Assembly: GCF_012848475.1 (NCBI RefSeq)
Contig: NZ_CP051666.1
Coordinates: forward strand, 457,501 to 521,500
DNA: 64,000 bases
Reading direction: 5' to 3'
Source: Marinobacterium sp. LSUCC0821
Lineage (GTDB): Bacteria; Pseudomonadota; Gammaproteobacteria; Pseudomonadales; Balneatricaceae
In this document: positions 5,027-41,960 of the stretch, piece by piece
Position numbering within the stretch: position 1 is the stretch's first letter
Layout of the letters: each line of letters begins with the position of its first letter
Translations under genes and position numbers: made by a program
The notes under the pieces: model-generated
What the model saw: the letters and a program-made list of their open reading frames with translations, nothing else
What the model was told of the DNA's origin: nothing
The model's database searches: none

Positions 5027-5103
5027 GGAGCGGTAGTTCAGTTGGTTAGAATACCTGCCTGTCACGCAGGGGGTCGCGGGTTCGAGTCCCGTCCGTTCCG
5101 CCA
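5027..5103 (+). tRNA. tRNA-Asp(GTC), copy 1
   Basis: A 77-nt cloverleaf with a 7-bp acceptor stem, GTC anticodon and encoded CCA. It is the first of three Asp-Val pairs. The 51-nt spacer to the next tRNA contains a hairpin directly after the CCA. Confidence 0.97.
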
Positions 5104-5154
5104 CTTTCTTAAATCGGCAAGAAAGTGAGTAGTCGCAAGACAAGCCACCGTTTT

Positions 5155-5230
5155 GGGCGAATAGCTCAGCTGGGAGAGCATCTGCCTTACAAGCAGAGGG
5201 TCGGGGGTTCGAACCCCTCTTCGCCCACCA
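5155..5230 (+). tRNA. tRNA-Val(TAC), copy 1
   Basis: A 76-nt cloverleaf with anticodon loop CTTACAA (anticodon TAC) and encoded CCA. Only 4 nt (AAAC) separate it from the next tRNA-Asp. Confidence 0.97.
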
Positions 5231-5234
5231 AAAC

Positions 5235-5311
5235 GGAGCGGTAGTTCAGTTGGTTAGAATACCTGCCTGTCACGCAGGGGGTCGCGGGTTCGAGTCCCGT
5301 CCGTTCCGCCA
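5235..5311 (+). tRNA. tRNA-Asp(GTC), copy 2
   Basis: Identical in sequence to copy 1, with encoded CCA. The array appears to have grown by tandem duplication of an Asp-Val unit of about 208 bp. Confidence 0.97.
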
Positions 5312-5363
5312 TTTTCTTAAATCGGCAAGAAAATGTTGAAGTCGAAAGACAAGCCACCGTTTT

Positions 5364-5439
5364 GGGCGAATAGCTCAGCTGGGAGAGCATCTGCCTTACA
5401 AGCAGAGGGTCGGGGGTTCGAACCCCTCTTCGCCCACCA
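5364..5439 (+). tRNA. tRNA-Val(TAC), copy 2
   Basis: Identical to copy 1. The upstream Asp-Val spacer keeps the hairpin of unit 1 with compensating base changes. The downstream spacer is again AAAC. Confidence 0.97.
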
Positions 5440-5443
5440 AAAC

Positions 5444-5520
5444 GGAGCGGTAGTTCAGTTGGTTAGAATACCTGCCTGTCACGCAGGGGGTCGCGGGTTC
5501 GAGTCCCGTCCGTTCCGCCA
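5444..5520 (+). tRNA. tRNA-Asp(GTC), copy 3
   Basis: Same mature sequence as the other two copies. The spacer that follows differs in sequence from units 1 and 2 but can still form a hairpin. Confidence 0.97.
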
Positions 5521-5572
5521 CTTACTCTTACGAGGAGTGGCAGATTTCTAAACAACATCGCCACATCGATAT

Positions 5573-5648
5573 GGGCGAATAGCTCAGCTGGGAGAGCATC
5601 TGCCTTACAAGCAGAGGGTCGGGGGTTCGAACCCCTCTTCGCCCACCA
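5573..5648 (+). tRNA. tRNA-Val(TAC), copy 3
   Basis: Last tRNA of the array, identical to the other Val copies, with encoded CCA. No terminator follows; a protein gene starts 16 nt downstream. Confidence 0.97.
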
Positions 5649-36531: not shown

Positions 36532-37344
36532 ATGCCTGATACACAGCTTATTATTGATACCTATATCACCCCCTGGTCGATCAATATCGCCTCAGCGCTT
36601 GCGATATTCATCATCGGTCGTTGGTTTGTTGGTCTGCTGGCGAAGGGGCTTGATAAAGTTCTGACTAAAACCGGCATGGATACGATGTTGGTTAATTTTA
36701 TCCGCTCGGTTGCCCATATCGCCTTGATTCTGTTTGTCGTTGTAGCGGCGCTAGGGCAATTAGGGGTAGATACCACGTCGCTGATTGCGTTGGTGGGTGC
36801 CGCTGGTTTAGCGATTGGCTTGGCGCTGCAAGATTCGTTAAAGAACTTTGCTGCTGGCGTCCTGCTAATCTTCTTTAGACCGTTTAAAGAGGGTGATTTT
36901 GTTGAGGTAGCTGGTGTTTCTGGTGTTGCGGAACAGATTACGATCTTTAATACGGTGATGCGTACTGGTGATAACCGCGAGGTCATTGTCCCAAATGGTG
37001 CGATCTACTCCGATATCATCACAAACTATAACCGTCGTCCTACACGTCGTATCGATATGATTGTGGGGATCTCTTACGATTCCGATATCCGTCTTGCCAA
37101 GCAAATTTTGGCTGAGATATTAGCTGCAGATGAGCGCGTGCTAGAGGATCCTGCACCCAAGATTGCCGTGGCAGAGTTAGCCGATAGCAGTGTGAATTTT
37201 GTCTGTCGCCCCTGGGTTAAAACAGATGACTACTGGGATACTAAGTGGGCTATTACCGAGCAGATTAAGCTTCGTTTCGATGAGGCGGGTATCGGTATTC
37301 CATTCCCGCAGATGGATATCCATCTAAAACGTGAGGATGCTTAA
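36532..37344 (+). CDS. mscS: Small-conductance mechanosensitive channel MscS
   Basis: The 270-residue channel opens under membrane tension and releases solutes on osmotic downshock. Three transmembrane helices lie within residues 15-110. The pore-lining third helix reads ALVGAAGLAIGLALQDSLKNFAAGVLLIFFRPF (given in outline), with the Ala-Gly packing expected. The cytosolic vestibule domain follows, including VIVPNGAIYSDIITNYNRRP (about 154-173). It is convergent with the SLC5-STAC gene with a 10-bp gap. Confidence 0.95.
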   Translation: MPDTQLIIDTYITPWSINIASALAIFIIGRWFVGLLAKGLDKVLTKTGMDTMLVNFIRSVAHIALILFVVVAALGQLGVDTTSLIALVGAAGLAIGLALQDSLKNFAAGVLLIFFRPFKEGDFVEVAGVSGVAEQITIFNTVMRTGDNREVIVPNGAIYSDIITNYNRRPTRRIDMIVGISYDSDIRLAKQILAEILAADERVLEDPAPKIAVAELADSSVNFVCRPWVKTDDYWDTKWAITEQIKLRFDEAGIGIPFPQMDIHLKREDA

Positions 37345-37354
37345 GGCGTCCTGA

Positions 37355-39559
37355 TTAAGACTCCTTAGCATCACCCTCGATGGCACGGCTACCTATCTCT
37401 AGTGTTAGCTGTGCCTTTAGAGCCTCATTCTCCATATTCAAACGCTGGGCTTCTAAGCGGTATTTGAATATCTCTTGATACTGTCTATCCAGTTTCTCAT
37501 CGAGCACCTTATTGGCATTGCGCAGTTGAGCAATCTCATTGTTCAGCATCTCGTTGCCTTTCTGCAGATCCCTAAAGAACTGAGAACCCTCTCCAGAGAC
37601 GATCTGCTGCCCGCGCCCATCTGACTGACTCAGCTTAAGTTCGCTAGCAAGGTGACTGAATAGGGCGCGAAGGTCTGCCGATTCTCGGTCGCTGTAACTA
37701 ATTGAGTCCTCTATGGCAGAGTGTGCTCCTGCTGCACCGATGGAGCCCGCAAGGCGATGCTCGATCATGCGATGGAACTCCATCAGCTCAACGACGGTCA
37801 GATGGCTGCGGCTTCCGAGTTGAAGATCATTCAATATCGAACCCAACATCTCTTCTGCTTTCTCATCAGAGAGGTAGCGGTTTAGGAGTTTCTCGGCCTC
37901 TTGAATCTTCGGTTCACGTTCGATGTAGGCTTCAAGTCCGGTCGGGCGAGCGTTTCTATAACGATCGCTCATCTCTTCTCGCATTGCATTAAACAGCTCG
38001 GCTGTTAAGGCGCGCTCAACTTTGCGCGGACGGTAGAGTTTACTGCCTAGCCAGTAGAAACCGAGGTTAAAGAGTAGCGACCAGAATACCCCGTGAGCGA
38101 GCGGTGGGAGGAAGTCAAAGCCAAACATCGCTTGTGGGCGCAGCCAGCTGTAACCCATAAATCCGTGGGTCATGATGCTCTGATCAATCCACCCCTCACC
38201 GACCATCGGTGGAACGACAAGCGTGAAATACCAAACCAGGTAGCCAATCAGAAGACCAAGTGCTGCACCCAGACTGTTGCCTGTTTTCCAGAATAGGCCG
38301 ATGAGACCTGCAGGCGCTAACTGCAGCACAGCAGCAAAGGAGATAAGTCCAAGCGAAACAAGTATGTAGGGAGCCTGTAACTGCTCAGCGGCGGTGAATG
38401 CCAACAAAAGAATGATGACAATTAACCCCCAACGAATCTGCAGTAGGGATGCAGCTAGTTGAGTATCAGGACGAATACGACGCCAGATAGGGATAACTAG
38501 ATGGTTAGAGGCCATGGTCGCCAAGGTAAGTGTGGTGACTATGATCATGCCCGTTGCTGCAGCAAAGCCGCCTATGAAAGCGATTAGGGTCAACGCTGGG
38601 CTTCCGCTCATCTGTGGGATAAGGAGGACAAACTGATCGCCTGCCGATGCGGGTAGGCCTAGTAGGAGGCCTGCAGCTGCAACGGGAATAACAAATAGAT
38701 TGATTGCAATGGTGTAGATCGGGAAGAGGCGAATAGCACTCTTTAGATGTTTGGAGTCAGCGTTTTCAACTACAGTGACGTGAAACTGGCGAGGCAGCAT
38801 CAAGATTGCAGCAGCGCCCAGAATAATTAGAGCAACCCAGGTATAGCCGCTACCTTCCTGCCCAGCAGAGTAGAGGTATTCAAGGTTGGCAGTTTGAATA
38901 TTTTGATGTAGGTCTTGGAAACCATCGAAAAGTCCGTAGGTGACGAAAAGGCCTACAGCAATAAACGCGAGTAACTTGATAAGACTCTCTGCCGCTAGTA
39001 CGGCAATAATTCCTTGGTGACGCTCTGTGGGGTCAACACGGCGCGCGCCAAACATGATGGTCAGTAGCGCCATGAGCAGGGTTACGACTAAGCCATTGCC
39101 GCTGCTGCTTGGCTCTCCAGTGAGTACCTCAAAAGCTCCATAAATCGCACGAAGTTGGAGAACGATGTAGGGTGCTAAGCCGATCATGGCAAGAATTGAG
39201 ACGAGTGCAGCGAGGCGCTGAGAACGTCGGTATCGAGTCGAAATTAGATCTGCGATTGAGGTGAGGCGAAAACTCTCTTTTGCCAAAATCATGCGTTTAA
39301 GAGCACCGGCCCCTAAAATGAGTCCCACAATAGCACCGACGTAAATGGCAAAAAATTGTGCACCGTTGGCGATGGCAAATCCCACGCTGCCGTAGAATGT
39401 CCAAGAGGTGAAAAAAACAGCTAGAGAAAGGGCATAAATAGCGCCTTGCCAGCGAAGCCCCGAACGTTTACGAGCGTAGCGTTCAACTAATACGGCAAGC
39501 GCAAACAGCATGCCCATATAGACGATTACAATGGCTGATAGTGATCCGGCCGAAAACAT
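37355..39559 (-). CDS. SLC5-type transporter with STAC domain and coiled coil, no kinase
   Basis: The 734-residue protein has an N-terminal SLC5/sodium:solute symporter-like region of about 13 helices (residues 1-525). A STAC-like domain follows (about 590-650, including MEFHRMIEHRLAGSIGAAGAHS), then a coiled coil (about 670-725). This is the N-terminal architecture of CbrA/CrbS-type sensor kinases, but the PAS, HisKA and ATPase domains are absent. It may transport a substrate, sense it, or signal through a separate partner; no kinase is adjacent. ATG 39559 has AAGGAG 8 nt upstream and overlaps the yidD stop by one base. Confidence 0.8.
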   Translation of the reverse strand: MFSAGSLSAIVIVYMGMLFALAVLVERYARKRSGLRWQGAIYALSLAVFFTSWTFYGSVGFAIANGAQFFAIYVGAIVGLILGAGALKRMILAKESFRLTSIADLISTRYRRSQRLAALVSILAMIGLAPYIVLQLRAIYGAFEVLTGEPSSSGNGLVVTLLMALLTIMFGARRVDPTERHQGIIAVLAAESLIKLLAFIAVGLFVTYGLFDGFQDLHQNIQTANLEYLYSAGQEGSGYTWVALIILGAAAILMLPRQFHVTVVENADSKHLKSAIRLFPIYTIAINLFVIPVAAAGLLLGLPASAGDQFVLLIPQMSGSPALTLIAFIGGFAAATGMIIVTTLTLATMASNHLVIPIWRRIRPDTQLAASLLQIRWGLIVIILLLAFTAAEQLQAPYILVSLGLISFAAVLQLAPAGLIGLFWKTGNSLGAALGLLIGYLVWYFTLVVPPMVGEGWIDQSIMTHGFMGYSWLRPQAMFGFDFLPPLAHGVFWSLLFNLGFYWLGSKLYRPRKVERALTAELFNAMREEMSDRYRNARPTGLEAYIEREPKIQEAEKLLNRYLSDEKAEEMLGSILNDLQLGSRSHLTVVELMEFHRMIEHRLAGSIGAAGAHSAIEDSISYSDRESADLRALFSHLASELKLSQSDGRGQQIVSGEGSQFFRDLQKGNEMLNNEIAQLRNANKVLDEKLDRQYQEIFKYRLEAQRLNMENEALKAQLTLEIGSRAIEGDAKES

Positions 39560-39867
39560 TAGGGTTGCTCCTTCGACGCACCGCAGCCGCACTTGGCTGC
39601 CTCTTCTGCTAGCTCTTGCTGGTAGCTCATCTCAAGTTCGCTACCCGGGACTGGGTCTATGCCGCCGTCTGAACCTGGATGGCAGCGACCAATCCGTTTC
39701 ATACCTATCCAAAACCCTTGAACTGGTCCATGCAGTGATACCGCCTCGATCATGTAGCTAGAACACGATGGATAGAAACGGCATCTCGGCCCAAGAATAG
39801 GGCTGATGAAAAGCTGGTAAAAGCGAACCACCAAAATGATGATTCGCTGGAAAAGACCTTTGATCAA
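39559..39867 (-). CDS. yidD: Membrane protein insertion efficiency factor YidD
   Basis: The 102-residue protein has the YidD signature [29 protein letters not shown] (in outline, about 15-43) and [12 protein letters not shown] (about 63-74). It helps YidC-dependent insertion of inner membrane proteins. It is normally encoded between rnpA and yidC; here it is coupled to the SLC5-STAC gene instead. A C-terminal extension with KCGCG is unusual. Placement beside a 13-helix membrane protein may be chance. Confidence 0.93.
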
Positions 39868-39924: not shown

Positions 39925-41430
39925 TCAGGCTGCTTCTGACTCTGACTCTTGGTCTAGTAGAAGCGTGTTGAGTGTGTGACTGCGAACCTTCTCAAGAAGT
40001 TCGCTATTGGTCGCAAGTGATTCACCGTATGATGGAATCATCTCTTTGAATTTTGCTTTCCAATCAGCACTTTGCGCGCGCTCTTTGAAACAAGTTTCAA
40101 TGATACAAACCATCGTGTTAGTGGCAGTAGATGCACCTGGTGATGCACCAAGTAGTGCAGCTAACGAGCCGTCTGCCGCGGAAATTACTTCAGTTCCGAA
40201 CTCCAATTTACCTTTGGTCTCGTTACCTGGTTTGATGATCTGAACACGCTGACCAGCGTAGGAAAGTTCCCAATCATTCTCCTCAGCATCAGGGAAGAAA
40301 TTGCGCAGCGATTCAACACGTGAACCGTGCGTCTGCATCACTTCACTGATGAGATATTTGGTGAGGTCCATGTTGTTTTTAGCAACAGACATCATAGGGA
40401 TAAGGTTGTCTGGGCTTAACGACATAGGTAGGTCCATAAGTGAACCATTCTTCAGGAACTTAGTGGAGAAGCCAGCAAAAGGTCCAAATAGAAGTGCTTT
40501 TTTGCCATTAATGATTCGTGTATCCAAATGCGGAACCGACATCGGCGGAGCACCTAGAGGTGCCATGCCGTAAACCTTGGCATGATGGCGTTCGATTACG
40601 GCAGGGTTTTTACAGATCAACCACTGGCCGCTCACTGGGAAACCACCGTAGCCATCACCTTCAGGGATGCCAGATTTCTGAAGAAGTGGAAGTGCACCAC
40701 CGCCTGCACCAAGGAAGACAAACTTAGCGTTAACCTTGTAAGTATCTGGCTTAGCAGAGTGTTTAAGTTTCACACTCCAGCTGCCGTCCTCTTTCTGTTT
40801 AAGGTCGGTAACGACACGAGAGAGGGCAAGCTCAAAGTTCTCGCTCATCTCAAGGAAATTGACCATGTAACGCGCTAGCTCACCAAAGTTTACATCTGAT
40901 CCGTAGCGAACACGGGTGGCAGCAATGGGTTGGTTTGGATCACGGTTATTCATTACCAGCGGCATCCACTCTTTGATGACTGCTGGATCTTCGCTGTACT
41001 CCATGGCACTGAATAGTGGGTGTTGTGTCAGTGCTGAGTGACGCTTGCGAAGGAAGTCGACATTCTCTTCACCCCAGACAAAGCTGCAGTGTGGAGAGGT
41101 GTTTATAAACTTTTTAGGATGAGGTAGTGCACCTTTGTTCACAAGGTACGACCAGAACTGTAGGCTGATTTCGAAACTCTCGTTGATCGAAAATGCTTTG
41201 CTACAGTTGATTGAGCCATCAGCCTGTTTAGGTGTGTAGTTCAATTCACAGTAAGCGGCGTGACCTGTACCGGCATTGTTAAGACCATCGGTACTTTCAC
41301 TAGCTACATGTCCCAAACGCTCAACCATTAAGATTTTTAGGTTTGGATCAAGTTCCTGGAGCATCACGCCTAGAGTTGTACTCATTGCGCCTGCGCCAAC
41401 TAATAACACGTCTACTTTCTGCGTATCCAT
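39925..41430 (-). CDS. mqo: Malate:quinone oxidoreductase
   Basis: Mqo is a peripheral membrane FAD enzyme that oxidises malate to oxaloacetate and reduces quinone. The 501-residue protein starts MDTQKVDVLLVGAGAMSTTL with the FAD motif (about 7-17). It has ESTDGLNNAGTGHAAYCELN (about 44-63) and GASPGAST (about 440-447), all typical of Mqo. ATG 41430 is chosen over a longer frame with a Cys-rich extension; a GGTGG sequence lies upstream. It is preceded by nearly 500 bp without a gene. Confidence 0.95.
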   Translation of the reverse strand: MDTQKVDVLLVGAGAMSTTLGVMLQELDPNLKILMVERLGHVASESTDGLNNAGTGHAAYCELNYTPKQADGSINCSKAFSINESFEISLQFWSYLVNKGALPHPKKFINTSPHCSFVWGEENVDFLRKRHSALTQHPLFSAMEYSEDPAVIKEWMPLVMNNRDPNQPIAATRVRYGSDVNFGELARYMVNFLEMSENFELALSRVVTDLKQKEDGSWSVKLKHSAKPDTYKVNAKFVFLGAGGGALPLLQKSGIPEGDGYGGFPVSGQWLICKNPAVIERHHAKVYGMAPLGAPPMSVPHLDTRIINGKKALLFGPFAGFSTKFLKNGSLMDLPMSLSPDNLIPMMSVAKNNMDLTKYLISEVMQTHGSRVESLRNFFPDAEENDWELSYAGQRVQIIKPGNETKGKLEFGTEVISAADGSLAALLGASPGASTATNTMVCIIETCFKERAQSADWKAKFKEMIPSYGESLATNSELLEKVRSHTLNTLLLDQESESEAA

Positions 41431-41960
41431 AACACCACCACATCTGCAATTTGAACAAATGGGTCTGCAGTAACTCAATGTTAGGCTTTTGGCCGAATAG
41501 AGGTTAGTTGCAAACCTAGGGATTTAACGAAAGTTTCTCGTCGGTATCCATTGTTGCCATACATGCTTTGTATGACATCCCTATTACTTGATGCTGATTA
41601 TATTGCGCTGCACCATAATGTAATCACCTTTCTAAGTGAATTTTTCGTTATAGCTGTATAGCAAATTCTGATAAGTCAGTTTCTATGCGGCCTAGCGCCA
41701 AGTTGCTTAAAAATTGATCAGACTAATGTTGAAGATTGAATCTGTTGGTTAAGCACTAAAAAATAGACGAAACCGCGTCGTTATTGGGATTCACGGATAC
41801 ATTGTGCGGACATTTTTCGCTTAAATCTTCTTAATAGATCTTTTTAATTGGTTTGTTATTAGAGTGGCTTTCGCTAATTAAACCCGAGACTGGTTAGTGT
41901 GAATTCCAAATAGAATTGAACGTTCGATAAGGTGTTGTAGATAGGGTTATTGCTGCAATT
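41431..41960. other. Long intergenic region upstream of mqo
   Basis: About 530 bp without a supported gene. A 32-codon frame from ATG 41572 has no ribosome binding site. AT-rich tracts and one half-site (TGCACCATAATG near 41610) are present. No riboswitch or tRNA was recognised. It probably holds the mqo promoter and regulatory sites. Confidence 0.6.

Follow-up and report, generated by a model that had tools for sequence, protein, structure and literature searches.

Evidence from sequence for a conserved branch of CbrA/CrbS-type proteins without a kinase in Marinobacterium and related genera

The STAC domain is described, in the available part of PMC4834066, as almost invariably joining SLC5 to two-component signaling domains, and two studies of STAC deletion differ, one seeing no visible phenotype and the other a lowered target expression (as told in the accessible text of PMC7918813). 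A gene in the window (the whole stretch of 64,000 nucleotides of Marinobacterium sp. LSUCC0821 that was analyzed) raises the question of what this domain does when no kinase follows it. A clade with a conserved STAC and no kinase separates the two roles, and STAC becomes testable on transport alone. Among the papers listed by literature searches, no title or abstract opening describes a kinase-less SLC5-STAC family. Proteins of this sort may already figure in the founding STAC paper (Korycinski 2015).

Gene and domain architecture

The mechanical open reading frame ran from 37355 to 39592 on the minus strand, with a GTG start (745 aa). The boundaries given in the first-pass annotation of this DNA proved right (Table 1), and ATG 39559 is the likelier start since MF were the first two residues in 23 of the 30 proteins of set A2 and the ATG has an AAGGAG 8 nt in front of it. 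Besides the window protein, set A2 comprised 28 kinase-less relatives and L126, a kinase-free relative of the GAF type; the partial L103 (477 aa) was excluded.

Table 1. Coordinates of the gene, its parts and its neighbors in the window.
Feature	Position	Strand	Basis
Kinase-less SLC5-STAC-coiled-coil protein, 734 aa from ATG 39559	37355..39559	-	ORF list, homology, alignment, model, Pfam
SLC5 (LeuT-fold) transporter domain, residues ~1-510	38030..39559	-	phmmer to CbrA 10ed; model and fold matches
Lys195, at the position of the Na2-site Lys196 of CbrA	38975..38977	-	Position counted on 10ed alignment
STAC domain, residues 541-645	37625..37939	-	Profile-profile match; four helices in model
LAGSIGAAGAH, residues 603-613, junction of STAC helices 3 and 4	37721..37753	-	Invariant positions; model helix ends
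C-terminal coiled-coil helix, residues 658-728 (71 residues), no kinase beyond	37376..37588	-	Model, alignment
AAGGAG, putative ribosome-binding site 8 nt 5' of ATG 39559, within yidD	39568..39573	-	Read from sequence
yidD, sole copy found in this genome; TAA overlaps SLC5-STAC ATG by one base	39559..39867	-	
mscS-like gene, convergent; end ~10 bases from SLC5-STAC stop	36532..37344	+	
mqo, malate:quinone oxidoreductase, upstream of yidD on the same strand	39925..41478	-	

The protein had been annotated as a CbrA/CrbS-like SLC5-STAC front ending in a coiled coil, with neither HisKA nor ATPase, and each part of this description held. Among PDB sequences searched with phmmer, the best solved relative was CbrA (10ed_A, E 2.3e-65, residues 13-463 of the 745-aa form), and when the CbrA-like relative L043 was used the match likewise ended at the carrier. 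An AlphaFold2 model of the window protein, built from 30 sequences (pLDDT 84.3, pTM 0.79), matched SLC5-fold structures with a top Z of 32.8 and an rmsd of 3.6 over 465 residues (CHT1, 9bim); 10ed was absent among the fold matches listed for it. Pfam SSF (PF00474) matched nine of the 30 A2 members, the window protein not being one of them, which says little on SLC5/SSS membership because the kinase-bearing relatives match weakly or not at all. By its LeuT-fold domain, the window protein is a member of the SLC5/SSS family.

The Na2-site lysine position was K in all 58 of the 58 aligned relatives; according to the available part of PMC13022988, K196 of CbrA occupies this site and is proposed to serve proton coupling of transport. 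Two residues of the CbrA pocket, W55 and F406, were retained in all 26 main-clade rows (figures that exclude seven of the 33 kinase-less rows: L033, L034, L036, L037, L109, L115 and L121), and in the same 26 rows S53 was changed to T, A56 to T and F248 to G or S, with Y51 changed to F in eight, the window protein included. Alignment A4 was made without the named loci L100, L102, L103, L108, L113 and L114. Given the changes of F248 to G or S and of Y51 to F in the window protein, histidine may not be the substrate. The changes at S53, A56 and F248 do not single out the kinase-less clade, since most of the 25 rows outside it also differ from CbrA at these positions. In seven paralogue rows the residue corresponding to CbrA Y75 was D (five) or E (two).

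Failure of a STAC match by HMM had been named beforehand as a ground for abandoning the annotation. A match was detected by profile-profile comparison: a profile of 28 STAC regions without a kinase, aligned by hhalign to one of 18 such regions in kinase-bearing relatives, gave 99.8%, E 7.3e-28, over 104 columns; Pfam found HATPase and HisKA in all 18 of these relatives (HisKA below the cut-off in two). The solved STACs (the 10ed STAC and 5a1q) were not listed for either the kinase-less or the kinase-bearing profile, and a profile that took in the coil gave coiled-coil matches. In the AlphaFold2 model the carrier is followed by predicted helices at 548-562, 565-578, 589-607 and 609-619 (with 624-645), and then by the long helix of the coil; a model of STAC and coil built without an alignment was poor (pLDDT 61.7). 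The stretch that the first-pass annotation had singled out, RLAGSIGAAGAHS, lies in the model at the junction of STAC helices 3 and 4. Few parts of STAC vary as little in A2 as this junction, with L603, G605, I607, G608, A610 and H613 identical in 30 of 30. The STAC of CbrA reaches with the tips of its helices 3 and 4 into a pocket on the underside of the carrier (PMC13022988, available part). The coil also has fixed positions, namely R701 and Q705 (29 of the 30 each), L714 (28) and F698 (27). When a profile of the coil was searched in eight genomes, nothing better than E 0.003 was obtained apart from the window-type protein itself.

HisKA and HATPase were matched by none of the 30 A2 members at E 0.01 (Pfam), and five kinase parts used as tblastn probes at E 1e-4 had no match in the window. 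By domain content, with no HisKA/DHp and no HATPase, the window protein is not an SLC5/STAC histidine kinase. The probe search also took in 29 named kinase-less loci and two GAF-type loci, and the flanks (up to 7 kb per side) of 26 of the 29 contained no match to the five probes. Kinase-like stretches were found in the other three: L115 (3.5 kb upstream, same strand), L120 (1.9 kb upstream, opposite strand) and L119 (4.4 kb downstream, opposite strand), the last being 60% identical to the kinase of the GAF-type L039.

Spread, age and constraint of the kinase-less form

A first scan of genome contigs with the single window protein as query returned no match. In the family scan of 60 genomes (G000-G059), the orthologues with the same truncation that the first-pass annotation had envisaged were found at full length in at least 46, as open frames of 725-821 aa, with 46-71% identity to the window protein in the other 45. 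The family is Oceanospirillaceae, going by the named relatives, which belong to Marinobacterium, Neptuniibacter, Nitrincola, Pontibacterium, Neptunomonas, Amphritea and Motiliproteus. No kinase-less form was among the matches listed for 13 of the 60 genomes, and G005 had only a piece at a contig end. At least six genomes carry a second kinase-less copy, 42-44% identical, and the G008 copy (L115) falls with this type in the tree. The second copies L033-L038 (in G059, G037, G023, G011, G025 and G049) have no yidD beside them. In the scan that gave the named relatives, the other 13 loci (L123-L135) were more distant, 12 of them with a kinase by Pfam and one, L126, without.

Beyond the family, 369 class genomes were searched with the C-terminal profile, and at E 1e-5 no genome but the own one gave a match. 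The SLC5+STAC query at E 1e-15 matched 43 places in a set of 185 class genomes and 113 in a set of 200 phylum genomes, samples that overlap in some genomes and in which many matches are carrier-only and a long frame alone is not proof of a kinase. Just two frames in these samples fall short of 893 aa: that of the window (758) and a 551-aa frame in G532, cut off by the contig end. The class and phylum figures are hand counts of the listings, checked against the per-genome numbers.

In a tree of 58 SLC5+STAC rows, the kinase-less proteins formed one clade of 35 rows (support 100/99), whose sister was a GAF-type Motiliproteus clade, with 100/99 for both together. The next branches were kinases of Thermodesulfobacteriota, of a Deltaproteobacteria MAG, of an unplaced proteobacterium and of Azoarcus, and the midpoint root fell between those branches and the CbrA/CrbS types. 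The tree was made without L103, L133-L135, L049 and the unnamed main-clade loci, for which the named loci were used instead. The GAF-type relatives differ from the window protein by a longer C-terminus; Pfam found GAF in L039, L041 and L128 and nothing in L126 at E 0.01; L039 and L128 (1328 aa) have the kinase, and L041 and L126 do not. These two kinase-free members, L041:7075-9702 (875 aa) and L126:5357-8119 (920 aa), come from Motiliproteus-type genomes, and L039 and L041 have neighbors in common. On this midpoint-rooted tree, one old kinase loss plus a separate loss in the GAF clade would be the simplest reading. A recent truncation with the kinase elsewhere in frame was the other outcome set beforehand as decisive against the annotation; the relatives show an old, clade-wide absence instead. 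As far as these comparisons go, the proteins make up a conserved branch of the CbrA/CrbS kind that has no kinase.

Conservation was compared with that of CrbS in the same 20 genomes (190 pairs). Mean identity of the kinase-less protein was 61.5% for STAC and 59.3% for SLC5, and the corresponding CrbS values were 76.4 and 70.6%. Without a kinase, STAC is thus just as well conserved as the carrier. An extra constraint on STAC was not borne out, its excess over the carrier being smaller than in CrbS (0.023 vs 0.058) and higher in the kinase-less protein for only 68 of the 190 pairs. Two pairs sharing one member had measurable dS throughout (in four of six pairs dS was saturated in at least one region) and gave dN/dS values of 0.035 and 0.039 for SLC5, 0.024 and 0.006 for STAC, and 0.131 and 0.115 for the coil. 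The coil is therefore under looser constraint than STAC, yet it has fixed positions.

Transport or signaling

With CbrA of Pseudomonas (SLC5-STAC-PAS-DHp-CA, 10ed) the window protein has in common the SLC5 fold, the Na2-site lysine and a STAC after the carrier, but it lacks PAS, DHp and CA, ends in the coil and is changed at F248 of the histidine pocket. With CrbS/MxtR (SLC5-STAC-PAS-HisKA-HATPase-REC) it shares the SLC5-STAC front half, without the kinase or the receiver. A CrbS-like hybrid kinase is encoded in the same genome (L047, 1307 aa, with two PAS, HisKA, HATPase and REC by Pfam), adjoining an SSF permease and a DUF4212 gene; it is 39% identical to the window protein and its coil differs. 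A third likeness is to the system of a HAMP receptor and a separate STAC protein, where, as here, an effector-free receptor-type membrane protein is coupled to STAC; unlike that system, the window protein is an SLC5-STAC fusion. Two CbrA-like kinases of ~930 aa (L044:3945-6357 and L043:9428-11843) come after genes for a single-domain response regulator and for a PAS-exonuclease protein, known by clustering and, for the L044 pair, by Pfam.

The reading that we prefer, tentatively and at a little under an even chance, is that of a stand-alone, probably proton-coupled carrier with STAC as a docking lid and the coil as a dimerizer. It builds on the architecture, homology, kinase absence, age, conservation and Na2-site lysine, which are established directly. 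A CbrA-type transceptor would have lost its kinase in the ancestor of part of the Oceanospirillaceae, and the protein would then have been kept as a stand-alone small-molecule carrier, probably coupled to protons. As seen in the structure of CbrA, STAC would dock beneath the transporter through the junction of its helices 3 and 4, and it may act as a regulatory lid or a stabilizing part of the transport cycle, while the coil may join two subunits, as the pre-kinase coil is thought to do in relatives.

The carrier reading is favored because the SLC5 part of CbrA, the nearest solved relative, imports L-histidine, apparently driven by protons, even without the kinase domains (PMC7096432, available part). 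The lysine fixed in the Na2 site, the retention of STAC on a par with the carrier and the absence of matches to the five kinase probes at 26 of the 29 loci argue in the same direction, and docking is favored because the junction that matches the docking tips of CbrA belongs to the least variable parts of STAC. Against this count the uptake rate of CbrA, termed relatively low, yet within the range of other histidine systems, in the accessible text of PMC7096432, and the finding that the SLC5-STAC part of CbrA alone did not restore growth on histidine (PMC13022988, as far as its available part goes). In addition, the fixed positions of the coil have no obvious use in a pure carrier, STAC is less conserved relative to the carrier here than in CrbS, histidine may not be the substrate given the pocket changes, and the neighbors point to no consistent substrate. 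As to the latter, genes such as LamB_YcsF/CT_A_B, speA, cysK and cydAB vary by genus with no consistent theme, and a substrate could not be assigned from them. The LamB_YcsF/CT_A_B genes we take to be 5-oxoprolinase subunits. In Nitrincola lacisaponensis (L098:3513-9469), one strand carries, in this order, yidD, a gene that looks phoH-like by eye, the SLC5-STAC gene and speA.

The main rival is a split transceptor that signals in trans through the coil: SLC5 would sense the substrate, and STAC and coil would relay this to an effector of its own gene elsewhere in the genome, be it a soluble kinase or some other protein. The first-pass annotation had put forward a stand-alone transporter and a kinase partner reached through the coil as its two alternatives. 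The fixed positions of the coil and the strong constraint on STAC speak for it, and the own genome holds 32 GHKL-domain matches, some of them not kinases, so a partner in trans is possible; by a crude count several lie in proteins without a hydrophobic segment. We consider this reading rather unlikely nonetheless, as a kinase-like stretch lies near only three of the 29 named loci by the five probes and the coil profile finds no other protein better than E 0.003 in the eight genomes. Co-occurrence identified no partner kinase among the candidates scored (up to 23 per genome). The candidate soluble kinase L143 was rejected, having no match at E 1e-40 in the protein-bearing genomes G007, G039 and G048 in that same scoring. 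In a form of the split transceptor that we would grant a modest chance at best, STAC would itself be the signaling or gating element: STAC and a specific coil would have outlived the kinase and report the transport state in trans to a kinase, or else to an effector of another kind, with production tied to YidD where CbrA has CbrX.

It is quite improbable that the protein is instead a modulator of a full-length SLC5-STAC kinase of the same cell, pairing with the CrbS-like protein via SLC5, STAC or coil and altering its output. The 1307-aa CrbS-like kinase of the own genome would be available for this, and long relatives (frames of ~1309-1391 aa) are among the matches listed in many genomes with the kinase-less form. 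However, the 39% identity and differing coils of the two proteins argue against pairing, and such kinases are also found in family genomes with no kinase-less form among the matches listed, for example G009 and G018.

Linkage to yidD and immediate surroundings

Of 21 neighborhoods, 20 had a yidD gene upstream and in the same orientation (16 by clustering, three by eye and one separately), as did 24 of the 29 named loci, with phoH or LamB_YcsF/CT_A_B genes in between in some loci. The five named loci without it were L100 (at a contig end), L109, L115 and L121 (which cluster with the second-copy paralogues) and L118. The pair persists in L055, L069 and L070, where most other neighbors differ, although L055 retains the SH3 gene. 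A genus without the kinase-less form among the matches listed (g11) was used as a control: yidD lies between mqo and mscS, opposed to mqo, in three of its four yidD loci (L087, L089 and L090), and the fourth has mqo only. Shared synteny may thus account for some of the linkage. The gene that overlaps cbrA upstream in Pseudomonas is cbrX, and its product binds the carrier and is dispensable for growth on histidine (PMC13022988, available part). A small overlapping upstream gene is thus common to CbrA and the window protein, and by analogy this suggests that yidD may stand in place of cbrX. The yidD linkage and the full-length CrbS-like kinase elsewhere in the genome go beyond the first-pass annotation.

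That the protein is no transporter and serves as a scaffold or membrane-biogenesis helper tied to YidD would agree with this linkage, above all with the persistence of the pair in L055, L069 and L070. We regard it as very improbable, since yidD keeps its place between mqo and mscS in the g11 loci, the second-copy loci lack yidD, and the carrier domain retains the Na2-site lysine.

The seven scanned neighbors in the window were mscS, yidD, an SH3-anchor gene, mqo, phoH, a glutathione peroxidase and ppnN, and no adjacent cognate response regulator was among them. Promoter-like and terminator-like sites around the gene were not more numerous than in shuffled sequence. The mscS-like gene ends so close to the SLC5-STAC stop that no space is left for a kinase remnant. 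That the gene is a CbrA-type kinase recently truncated or decaying as a pseudogene, a view with the missing kinase as its sole point, is refuted as far as sequence can show by the open frames in at least 46 of the 60 family genomes, the single supported clade of 35 rows, the low dN/dS of the two measurable pairs and the lack of any kinase remnant in the window. A DcuR-like regulator lies near the paralogue L034, and three tandem tRNA-Asp(gtc)/tRNA-Val(tac) pairs, spaced at ~209 bp, occupy positions 5027-5648 of the window.
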